Assembly (NCBI RefSeq): GCF_024204645.1
Contig: NZ_CP100351.1
Span: forward strand, 2,294,001 to 2,358,000
DNA from: Desulfomicrobium sp. ZS1
Lineage (GTDB): Bacteria; Desulfobacterota; Desulfovibrionia; Desulfovibrionales; Desulfomicrobiaceae
Direction of reading: 5' to 3'
DNA: 64,000 nt
Below the pieces are notes generated by a model that was not told where the DNA came from, did not search any database, and saw only the letters and a list, made by a program, of their open reading frames with translations. The position numbers were made by a program, and so were the translations under genes. Below, piece after piece: positions 52,856-54,942 of this stretch. Every line of letters begins with the position of its first letter. The first letter of the stretch is position 1.

Positions 52856-53353
52856 ATGCGTCCACGGCTGATCCTGTCGCTTGCGATTGCCTGCCTGCTT
52901 ATCGCGGGCTGTGCCCATTTGAGCGTCGTGCATCTGGACAAGAACCCCTGGACCCTCGGTCAGCAGGAAACCCTTGTCATGCGCTACTGGGAATTCTCCT
53001 ACTCGAGCCGCCTGGAGGAAAACACGCTGATCATTTCCGGCACGGCCAAACCCGTGGCCGGAGCGATCCCCGAATGGGCGACCTGGATCCAGGACCTGTG
53101 GATGCAGATCTACCTGAGCGACGACCAGAGCCGCGTTCTGGCCAAGGACCTGCGTCTTTACCTGCCCACCGGCCTGGACCACGAAAAGGGCGTGCCCTTT
53201 GAATTCCACCTCACGCCCGAATCCCTGGGCTCGTCGGGCCCCCTGTACATCTCTTTCGGATACCGCATGGAACTGACGGCGGAGAAAAACACCCTGGGCG
53301 CGGGCGCGCCCGGCAAGGTCTTCTTCGCCAGCCAGGGGGCGCTCTTTCAATAG
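52856..53353 (+). CDS. Small lipoprotein of unknown function
   Basis: 165 residues starting MRPRLILSLAIACLLIAGCAH, signal with lipobox LIAGC. The mature part is mainly beta (LSVVHLDKNPWTLGQQETLVMRYWEF at its beginning) with a tryptophan-rich middle (WATWIQDLWMQIYL) and no known domain. Start chosen at 52856 with caaggag. It could be in one transcript with the two preceding genes. A strong terminator follows. Confidence 0.75.
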   Translation: MRPRLILSLAIACLLIAGCAHLSVVHLDKNPWTLGQQETLVMRYWEFSYSSRLEENTLIISGTAKPVAGAIPEWATWIQDLWMQIYLSDDQSRVLAKDLRLYLPTGLDHEKGVPFEFHLTPESLGSSGPLYISFGYRMELTAEKNTLGAGAPGKVFFASQGALFQ

Positions 53354-53378
53354 TCCCTCCCCTTCACACAACACAAAA

Positions 53379-53415
53379 AGCCCCCGCAAGCAGCACAACT
53401 TGCGGGGGCTTTTTT
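53379..53415 (+). terminator. Terminator after the lipoprotein gene
   Basis: Near-perfect 11-bp stem agcccccgcaag / cttgcgggggct with a loop of eight bases and a T6 tail. Confidence 0.9.
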
Positions 53416-53518
53416 CGTATTATCCCATCCTTCGAACATTTGCCCCACATGGGCAAACCCTGTCCGTAAGACTTTAGTCATCAGCCTAAAAACAAAATAC
53501 GTTCCACCAGCGCCTTAA

Positions 53519-53693
53519 GGCCCGTTGTCGTCATGGCCTTGAGGCTCGTCGGCTGTCTGACTGAGCCAGGCATCGTTTGTTGAATCGTTGCCAGACGCGC
53601 GGCATGGGCTATCCGCCCGGTACGCAACGATTCAACTCTACGAGGCCGGTGATGGAGTTCCGGCGGGTCTCAAGGCCATGACGACAGCGGGCC
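53519..53693 (+). ncRNA. Long imperfect hairpin, candidate structured RNA or palindromic element
   Basis: Outer arms of 34 bases (53519-53552 and 53660-53693) match at 30 positions; the other four are G-T pairs when read on the plus strand. Inside lies a partly paired 10-bp section (aggcatcgt with acgaggccgg) and then a perfect 13-bp stem gttgaatcgttgc / gcaacgattcaac (53579-53591, 53624-53636), with a small gggc/gccc hairpin at the tip. Total span is 175 bases. Not an attC site (the core sites are in the wrong orientation). Whether it is transcribed is unknown. Confidence 0.5.
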
Positions 53694-53803
53694 GCGTGCC
53701 GTAACCGGGTTTCTTCTTTTCAGCGTTCTGTCCCGGAACGCTTACCGCACATGATCGCGAGTCACGGCTTGATACAGTTGCTCGCAGGCATCATTGAAGA
53801 TGG

Positions 53804-53823
53804 ATTCCCGCCTTCGCGGGAAT
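53804..53823. repeat. REP/dRS3-like palindrome
   Basis: Attcccgc-cttc-gcgggaat, an 8-bp perfect stem, in the context ggattcccgccttcgcgggaatgac. This motif is widespread as a dispersed repeat in many proteobacteria (translated by chance as VIPAKAGIH in false frames); the copy here is isolated in the window. Confidence 0.75.
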
Positions 53824-53903
53824 GACCCCGTGTTGCGCGGTCAATCTGTTTTTTGCCTTGCAGCTGAACAAAGCAGAGGGTGTTAATGGGATTAAAAAAC
53901 CCG

Positions 53904-54386: not shown

Positions 54387-54549
54387 TTTTTCTCCCTGTA
54401 GCGTTATTACCAATTATTATTCTTGAATGGAAAAAAATCCGTATAAACATTTATGCATGCAGAGCCAGAAACATTTGCCATGTGTTGACAAAATTACAGA
54501 ACGAAACTAATACTACAAATTACAAATACGCGATAGTTGGAGGTTGAAC

Positions 54550-54942
54550 ATGGAAGAGTATGTAAAACAAGCGCTCGAAATCGTCAAAGCACAAGCCAGT
54601 GTGCGCAACATGAACGAGGAAGAGCTGACGTCCATGATTCGTTCGTTGACCGAAGGAATCAAGAACGTTGCCGAAGGAAACCAACCTGAACCCGAAGCAA
54701 CCCTGTCACTTGATGATGCCAAAAAAGCCATCCGCGAAAAAAGCATCATCTGCATGGAATGCTCGAAATCGTTCAAGGTGCTGACCAAACGCCACCTGGC
54801 GACCCACGGTCTCACTCCCGAAGAATACCGGGAAAAGTGGGGCTACAAGAAGGGCACGTCCCTGGTGGCCAAATCCCTGGCCCGTGATCGCCGCAAAAAA
54901 ATGCAGGACATGAAGCTCTGGGAGAAACGGGTCAAGAAGTAG
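54550..54942 (+). CDS. MucR/Ros-family transcription regulator
   Basis: 130 residues. Zinc finger CMECSKSFKVLTKRHLATH (C-x2-C-x9... with H-x4-H spacing) followed by GLTPEEYREKWGYKKGT and a basic C-terminal tail, the Ros/MucR hallmark. The N-terminal 65 residues are acidic and helical. MucR proteins bind AT-rich DNA and often silence horizontally acquired genes or control exopolysaccharide and motility. ATG 54550 has GGAGG at six bases. The gene lies a few hundred bases from the hairpin-rich stretch. Confidence 0.92.
   Translation: MEEYVKQALEIVKAQASVRNMNEEELTSMIRSLTEGIKNVAEGNQPEPEATLSLDDAKKAIREKSIICMECSKSFKVLTKRHLATHGLTPEEYREKWGYKKGTSLVAKSLARDRRKKMQDMKLWEKRVKK

Follow-up and report, generated by a model that had tools for sequence, protein, structure and literature searches.

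Palindromic repeats that occur dispersed in genomes are usually regarded as remnants of transposition. Integron attC sites are imperfect hairpins of single-stranded DNA that combine conserved unpaired features with a free stem sequence. Long stem-loop repeats such as ERIC, YPAL and Bcr1 are a kind that is already known, and the same is true for the REPs. ERIC, YPAL and Bcr1 are described as dispersed repeats of about 100-170 bp that are able to form stem-loops; ERIC is one long stem-loop, and in Yersinia it acts on neighbouring genes via RNA hairpins (PMC2267715). REPs are palindromic and multi-copy, and in E. coli they are handled as single-stranded DNA by the RAYT (PMC3733652; see also PMC3116915).

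The locus described here lies in a stretch of 64,000 nucleotides from Desulfomicrobium sp. ZS1 (contig NZ_CP100351.1, positions 2,294,001 to 2,358,000), which is called the window below. The hairpin is not a lone one; it is one copy of a dispersed family, which the initial annotation missed. The family is a multi-copy, structure-constrained element of Desulfovibrionales. The genome of strain ZS1 is called G000, and G015 is a close relative, which was taken as Desulfomicrobium baculatum DSM 4028.

The copy in the window and its surroundings

The features of the window copy are compiled in Table 1. An inverted-repeat search yielded the outer arms, 34 nt each, 88% complementary and with 107 nt between them, and it also recovered the inner arms. 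The arms had been said to agree at 30 of 34 positions with four differences that are all G-U pairs on the plus strand, and this was borne out; also the perfect inner stem of 13 bp is present as described. The predicted fold of the plus strand had an energy of -117 kcal/mol, compared to -68.6 for dinucleotide shuffles (z -11.1, equalled by none of 200 shuffles), and all 34 outer positions were paired, G-U included. The values for the minus strand were -100.1 kcal/mol and z -9.3, again with dinucleotide shuffles. The fold energy is far outside the shuffles on both strands, and the plus strand is better.

Table 1. Features of the hairpin element in the window (window positions unless stated otherwise)
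Feature	Position	Strand	Basis or remark
Whole hairpin element, window copy	53519..53693	+ (folded, motif-bearing strand)	Fold and inverted-repeat search
Covariance-model match of the window copy	genome 2347533-2347681		148.8 bits
Outer helix, 5' arm	53519..53552	+	34 bp here; family average 33 bp
Outer helix, 3' arm	53660..53693	+	Fold, inverted repeats, pairing drop after bp 33
Conserved 5' half of internal loop and short helix, TGTCTGACTGAGCCAGGCATCGTTTG	53554..53579	+	Column counts (n = 182 copies); paralogue alignment
Conserved 3' half, TACGAGGCCGGTGATGGAGTT; family TACGAGGCCnGCGARGGAGTT	53639..53659	+	Column counts, paralogue alignment
Inner stem, 5' arm, 13 bp	53579..53591	+	Fold; covariation in modelled inner pairs
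Inner stem, 3' arm	53624..53636	+	Fold, inverted repeats, covariation
Variable apical part	53592..53623	+	Least conserved element part between orthologues, 10.3%
Upstream flank	53479..53518	+	Family-average basis (about 40 nt, C-rich and G-poor on the motif strand), not the window copy alone

The gene-free stretch around the element exists and contains two further hairpins, but according to the ORF calls its length is about 550 bases (53354-53903) and not 490 bases as first given. A perfect 16-bp hairpin at 53375-53414 is terminator-like on the minus strand and is followed by TTTTTTCG on the plus strand; this hairpin, with its T run, separates the element from the upstream gene. Near 53803-53826 a GATTCCCGCCTTCGCGGGAAT palindrome was read by eye, within a GATTCCCGCCTTCGCGGGAATGAC palindrome at 53798-53830 that we take to be a widespread REP-like repeat. 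G015 has the hairpin element but lacks a match to the stretch of 187 bases in which the GATTCCCGCCTTCGCGGGAATGAC palindrome lies. Pieces of a similar repeat, e.g., CCATCTT and GAATCCA, are enriched upstream of other copies (11-16 of 169 flanks). The MucR gene that had been placed beside the hairpin was confirmed (PF05443, E 1.5e-43, 54544-54942), although on the right side it comes second and does not adjoin; the immediate right neighbour is a minus-strand ORF of 169 aa, which has no Pfam match.

A scan of the window with Rfam 15 yielded only two tRNAs that reached the cut-off. A permissive scan of 53350-53900 gave 24 matches, none at its own cut-off, and most of them fell on the hairpin at 53375-53414; one sub-threshold match (18.8 bits, cut-off 45) touches the 5' arm of the element. 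For a comparison of the locus, 13 other genomes were searched, and eight sequences including that of the window were aligned. The element is present at this locus in G015 and G001, and a remnant was found in G007. It is absent in G003, G008, G012 and G014, which have little beyond a terminator-like hairpin between the genes.

Distribution, structure and conservation of the family

BLAST of the own genome with the hairpin gave 76 match pieces, and an alignment of the first 20 loci revealed two conserved half-motifs, while the arms of the subfamilies differ in sequence yet are complementary. The covariance model R1 was used for the genome searches. In the own genome it matched 60 places, 51 of them strongly (at least 79 bits); the other nine had at most 47.1 bits, and eight of these were the same copies on the other strand. 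G015 had 50 places, i.e., 42 strong ones and eight other-strand echoes. With filters that were stricter than in the own-genome search, R1 matches were found in 24 of 61 genomes and 7 of 18 genera of the relatives set, and in 23 of 297 genomes and 7 of 53 genera of the class (own genome included in both cases), while a phylum sample of 395 genomes had no match outside the own genome. In the relatives set the copy number ranges from zero to at least about 50 per genome, and counts near 50 are lower bounds because the best 51 candidates per genome were scored. At least 50 copies each were present in G001 and G041, at least 41 in G007, 28 in G014 and seven in G026, which was taken as Desulfohalobium retbaense, while five genomes of the genus Desulfomicrobium had no R1 match. 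An exact pattern was matched in the GTDB genome collection by Desulfomicrobium, Desulfonatronum, one Desulfovibrionales MAG and one MAG labelled Proteobacteria; the latter (JAHIQM records; L069, L071 and others) is very probably genome G001, a Desulfomicrobium. A plasmid search with 541 bases gave no match, and no viral contig contained a 24-base pattern.

Fifteen loci from other genera were folded, and most of them retain the layout, although their arms differ in sequence; the exceptions in regularity are L179 (G027) and L218 (G305). An intact structure is also found in most genomes that have a single match, and inspection of the neighbour translations by eye revealed no common partner gene beside single copies (G017, G035, G058, G291, G305 and one of the two G037 copies). 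Local tandem arrays occur at L021 703-1590, L022 574-1063 and L028 1248-1727, with spacings of 240-296 bases (element plus spacer), and the copy number in tandem arrays differs between G000 and G015. A description of the family was not found in the open-access literature that was searched, and neither was the motif string GAGCCAGGCATCGTT. The genome papers of D. baculatum and D. retbaense contain "palindrom" 0 times, and their repeat passages concern CRISPR or are references. Apparently this hairpin element family of sulfate-reducing bacteria is undescribed so far.

The layout is fixed. An outer stem of 33 bp, which is almost free in sequence, leads to a conserved asymmetric internal loop and a short helix, and these are followed by the inner stem and a variable tip. 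For the covariation analysis, 28 of 38 parsed paralogues were aligned in motif orientation. RNAalifold predicted 44 column pairs, 29 of them with compensatory changes. For 46 tested pairs in the 28 paralogues, 92.1% of the cells were able to pair, compared to 72.5% in shuffles, and 263 cells had changes on both sides, compared to 82.7. None of 500 shuffles attained any of five covariation measures, and when the structure was slid by 1-3 columns the pairing fell to 33-46%. Changes on both sides were also seen in 10 of the 11 modelled inner-stem pairs. Compensatory changes, on which the initial annotation had made the case for a conserved RNA depend, are many across the paralogues. Columns 30/128 covary (U-A in 19 rows, C-G in 7 rows). 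In columns 31/127 and 32/126, 27 of the 28 rows hold non-standard combinations, for the most part G-A and A-G, and G-C and C-G occur in one row each. Among 182 copies with at least 22 of 34 arm matches, the mean Watson-Crick pairing was 0.81 at bp 33, 0.45 at bp 34 and 0.23 at bp 35. These are positional means and not helix lengths of single copies, and the drop after bp 33 indicates that the helix ends at about 33 bp despite its nearly free sequence.

The mismatches in the outer stem are unequal on the two strands. The first 31 arm pairs of 183 of the 202 distinct copies (at least 20 of 34 matches, ungapped arms, no RNA rule) contained 5044 Watson-Crick, 370 G-T, 41 A-C and 218 other cells. 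In 177 copies and 33 pairs, the mismatches were G-T 379, A-G 118, G-G 67, A-C 44, C-T 18, A-A 13, T-T 9 and C-C 2; these copies include orthologues and tandem copies and are hence not independent. Counted by distinct context, the same mismatches were G-T 234, A-G 81, G-G 44, A-C 38, C-T 16, A-A 13, T-T 8 and C-C 1. Positions 4, 7, 8 and 9 of the outer stem are special, and without these four and position 33 the distinct contexts were G-T 158, A-G 64, A-C 32, G-G 11, A-A 11, C-T 10 and T-T 5, so that the share of G-T was 158 of 291. A mutation bias of the replication strand was considered as the cause of the G-T excess and was rejected, because copies in reverse orientation show the excess too, with 20 G-T to 1 A-C in the 10 of 13 that could be parsed; this count omits 13 of 93 copies, which were unparsed or had poor pairing.

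Conservation in place was analyzed at orthologous sites of G000 and G015, which were found from their flanks; 25 loci were parsed and kept. The sequences differed at 22.0% of the positions in the flanks, 10.3% in the apical part, 5.9% in the outer stem, 2.4% in the motif (0 to 5 of 49 sites per locus) and 1.7% in the inner stem. Changes in outer pairs were of the type Watson-Crick/G-T in 36 cases, Watson-Crick/A-C in six and Watson-Crick/other in 19. Fifteen outer pairs had changed on both sides, compared to an expectation of 2.9, and 12 of these are Watson-Crick in both species. Two of originally 27 pairs were dropped after the counts had been seen, i.e., 3838550/3910482 (arms misparsed) and 2701677/244121 (probably the wrong tandem partner). 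With these two loci the counts are 42, 13 and 33, respectively, and there are 24 double changes, 20 of them Watson-Crick to Watson-Crick and four other. The pairs 3541286 and 3690897 could not be parsed and were left out. An earlier count on MFE pairs at 24 loci was less favourable, with 107 broken and 67 kept pairs among single changes and 4 broken and 18 kept among double changes; it was replaced by the ungapped arm counts because pairs taken from the MFE structure of a single species favour breaks. At the divergence of G000 and G015, little effect is expected from ascertainment by the model. With 2.4% in the motif against 22% in the flanks, single copies look constrained in place and, as far as the sequence comparison goes, appear to be held there by selection. 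Decayed copies exist, for example a remnant in G015 opposite G000 2584979. Eight loci without an upstream sense gene were as conserved as 17 loci with one (motif 1.5% versus 2.9%); an RNA would thus need no neighbouring sense gene.

Taken together, the compensatory changes, the asymmetry of G-T and A-C and the changes at orthologous loci support selection on the plus-strand fold well beyond the original argument, which was that four differences would fall on one strand by chance about one time in eight. The family is almost certainly a structured one that is under selection on the fold of this strand.

Protein coding was also considered. The motif reads CLTEPGIV and YEAGEGV in one frame, and stops in this frame are rare (3 of 1958 codons per arm; the other two frames have 34 and 5 stops in the 5' arm and 28 and 21 in the 3' arm). 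Coding was rejected despite the rare stops, because the conserved halves are out of frame in 133 of 182 copies and the changes by codon position at the 25 loci do not fit (18/22/9 in the 5' arm, 15/13/21 in the 3' arm).

Orientation, gene context and candidate partner proteins

The gene context was called with a home-made gene caller on 62 fetched regions. Sites between convergent genes are frequent (17 of 38 in G000, 16 of 36 in G015), while sites between divergent genes are rare (1 of 38 and 2 of 36), and element-free divergent gaps are common in the same regions (38 in G000, 33 in G015). Two of the 51 copies of G000 overlap a gene call. The motif strand is on the C-rich strand in 43 of 51 copies in G000 and 37 of 42 in G015 (binomial p 7e-7 and 4e-7, tandem copies counted singly). 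The rRNA genes (two in G000, one in G015) identify the G-rich strand as the leading strand. Counted by site, 31 of 38 in G000 and 32 of 36 in G015 are oriented against the leading strand. This was true in each gene context, although the divergent class comprises just 1 site in G000 and 2 in G015. Gene direction was rejected as the cause, because the bias is independent of the direction of the adjacent genes. A ratio of 57 to 8 against the leading strand was found in nine other genomes of the genus, and in Desulfonatronum it was 27 to 11 (loci analysed, orthologous sites included in both cases). In G012 it was 0 to 3, i.e., all three copies examined point the opposite way.

Some copies were flipped in place: for example, the copies at G015 1040198 (L293) and G000 1127279 (L241) have opposite orientations in collinear flanks, and recombination between the arms is perhaps responsible. 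The regions G000 0.19-0.66 Mb and G015 2.32-2.78 Mb are part of a large rearrangement, and most copies retained their orientation relative to replication.

On the motif strand, the flanks (roughly 40 nt before and 60 nt after the element) are rich in C and poor in G (C 0.36-0.38, G 0.18-0.19 as family averages). A negative GC skew was present on each side in 77 of 80 consistently oriented copies. It was far weaker, together with the C-richness, in 13 reverse-oriented copies, and the C-richness is thus partly a property of the replication strand. Sigma-70-like promoters are not in excess upstream; with 0.6% of 169 flanks they are less frequent than in the shuffles (6%). Terminator-like sites follow the element on the motif strand at 8 of 75 sites; intrinsic terminators near the copies are few and were dismissed as uninformative.

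Among 32 searched genomes, PF01797 (Y1) was found in 17 of 22 that bear the element and in 2 of 10 that are free of it. Ordered by the number of R1 matches, it was present in 10 of 13 genomes with at least ten, 7 of 9 with one to nine and 2 of 10 with none. Genome size and kinship are confounders of this association. The element-bearing genomes G014, G041, G003, G008 (63% complete) and G017 have no PF01797 match. One copy in G001 is less than 600 bases from a Y1 match. Judged from gene content, the element may be linked with Y1 proteins, for which the association speaks, and they would not be required in every host. PF00078 (reverse transcriptase) was found in 13 of the 32 genomes. A resident reverse transcriptase was rejected as a required partner, because at E 1e-5 the copy-rich genomes G001, G007 and G015 (at least 50, at least 41 and 42 copies) have no match. 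The own genome has three reverse transcriptase genes with identical scores and frames of 500 aa (G000 C1:1681818, 2421866 and 2687292), perhaps a recently multiplied group II intron or similar.

Possible modes of action and comparison with known systems

The best explanation overall, to which we assign a probability of roughly 0.4, is that the motif strand is folded as RNA, and that anti-fork transcripts are ended or cut at the element. The RNA would originate from transcription through the intergenic site in the direction opposite to that of the fork. A protein would read the double helix of fixed length together with the conserved asymmetric loop and its facing G-A/A-G positions; 33 bp are about three turns of A-form RNA. 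The C-rich, G-poor and presumably unpaired flanks would let the transcripts be ended or cut in a Rho- or RNase III-like manner, and head-on and antisense transcription would be kept out of the neighbouring genes. Because G-T is the commonest mismatch, RNA is mildly favoured over single-stranded DNA as the folded molecule, at slightly better than even odds. That the function is the control of anti-fork transcription is possible, but doubtful. The main points against RNA are that no sigma-70-like promoter signal was seen and that conservation does not depend on sense genes, and the alternative of single-stranded DNA is close behind. The reverse orientation in G012, the T-run hairpin upstream of the window copy and the weaker C-richness of the flanks in reverse-oriented copies also count against this explanation. 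Its absence or loss at the same locus in close relatives, together with the five genomes of the genus without a match, shows that the element is dispensable.

The lack of a promoter signal, the independence of an upstream sense gene and the orientation that follows replication make it possible that folded single-stranded DNA is the working form, either as a polar chromosomal site or as a mobile hairpin that is handled at the replication fork; we regard this as a serious candidate that is nevertheless rather unlikely. In sense, the motif strand corresponds to the nascent lagging strand, as would be expected if a folded copy anneals to the lagging-strand template and is joined like an Okazaki fragment. 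It is in line with this that GC skew, and not the genes, determines how the copies point in G000 and G015, that the orientation follows GC skew in other species as well, that loci are gained and lost and flip in place, and that Y1 genes accompany the element. The tolerated mismatches are those with G, and the tolerance of G-T, A-G and G-G could reflect a hairpin of single-stranded DNA; however, G-T dominates outside the five special positions, which fits better to RNA. As a rule, single-stranded DNA is exposed on the lagging-strand template, and the strand found there is the opposite one. Furthermore, no enzyme is present in every host, since G014 (28 matches to the element) and G041 (at least 50) lack Y1 matches, and mobility alone leaves the constraint on old copies unexplained. 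An RNA-like fold and a fork-related orientation would also be expected if the hairpin RNA were copied by a reverse transcriptase and inserted at forks. The enzyme is encoded in 13 of 32 genomes, with three equal-scoring genes in the own genome, but G001, G007 and G015 maintain the element without a PF00078 match, so that a resident enzyme is unnecessary for maintenance, although one may have been used in the past, and such a retroelement is very improbable.

A passive palindromic repeat of the MITE, ERIC or REP kind, mobilized by a transposase in trans and with stems kept only by palindrome repair or template switching, is disfavoured and we consider it improbable. It would account for dispersed intergenic copies that are rare between divergent genes, for tandem duplications, for copy numbers between zero and at least about 50 per genome and for the association with Y1 genes. 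Palindrome repair would also yield covariation, but neither a strand asymmetry nor the protection of a non-palindromic loop motif, and both are seen. In addition, the subfamilies share no arm sequence, so the arms are not terminal repeats read by a transposase, and no target duplication was seen at the six compared sites. The constraint at the loci and the mostly intact structure in single-match genomes, which have no common partner gene by eye, would also fit to copies that are independent small-RNA genes. This has only a slim chance, given that there is no promoter signal of the sigma-70 consensus, that terminator-like sites follow the element at only 8 of 75 sites and that most copies are oriented against the fork.

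This one family unites strong covariation with a stem of fixed length, selection on one strand, constraint on individual loci and an orientation that depends on replication but not on genes. It is conceivable, though we hold it to be unlikely, that this is a new class of polar chromosomal signal, with about fifty intergenic sites per genome at which a folded single strand is read (RNA against the fork or DNA at the fork), oriented by replication and selected site by site, yet gained and lost between species. The family makes it testable whether such repeats serve the chromosome, either by limiting anti-fork transcription or in the handling of single strands at the fork, and a cultured type strain, D. 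baculatum (taken as G015), carries 42 copies.

The element resembles MITEs in being short and non-coding and in having inverted arms. The initial annotation had offered a MITE-like palindrome as the alternative; copies are indeed dispersed, but the arms differ wholly between subfamilies yet pair. Target-site duplications, which it had proposed to look for, were not visible at six sites that differ between G000 and G015, with junctions blurred by divergence and other repeats. In contrast to MITEs, the copies have no arm sequence in common, and they look constrained in place. With regard to retrons, group II introns and other reverse transcriptase elements, the hosts G001, G007 and G015 had no match to the enzyme. 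Integron attC sites are similar as judged from their description only; the copies here are single or in short tandem arrays across the chromosome. REPs have 20-40 bp and a GTAG or CGTC tag, whereas the element here has about 175 nt and no constant GTAG: CTACGAG, whose complementary strand includes GTAG, gives way to TTACGAG in other subfamilies. The element also occurs in genomes without a Y1 match. Repeats of the ERIC/YPAL type are similar in kind, i.e., they are dispersed intergenic repeats of 100-200 bp with a long stem-loop, and the likeness meant here is one of kind. Compared with the excerpted description of ERIC, YPAL and Bcr1 (PMC2267715), the present family is set apart by another host, a free stem sequence, a fixed stem length, a conserved internal loop, selection on one strand and an orientation that follows replication.
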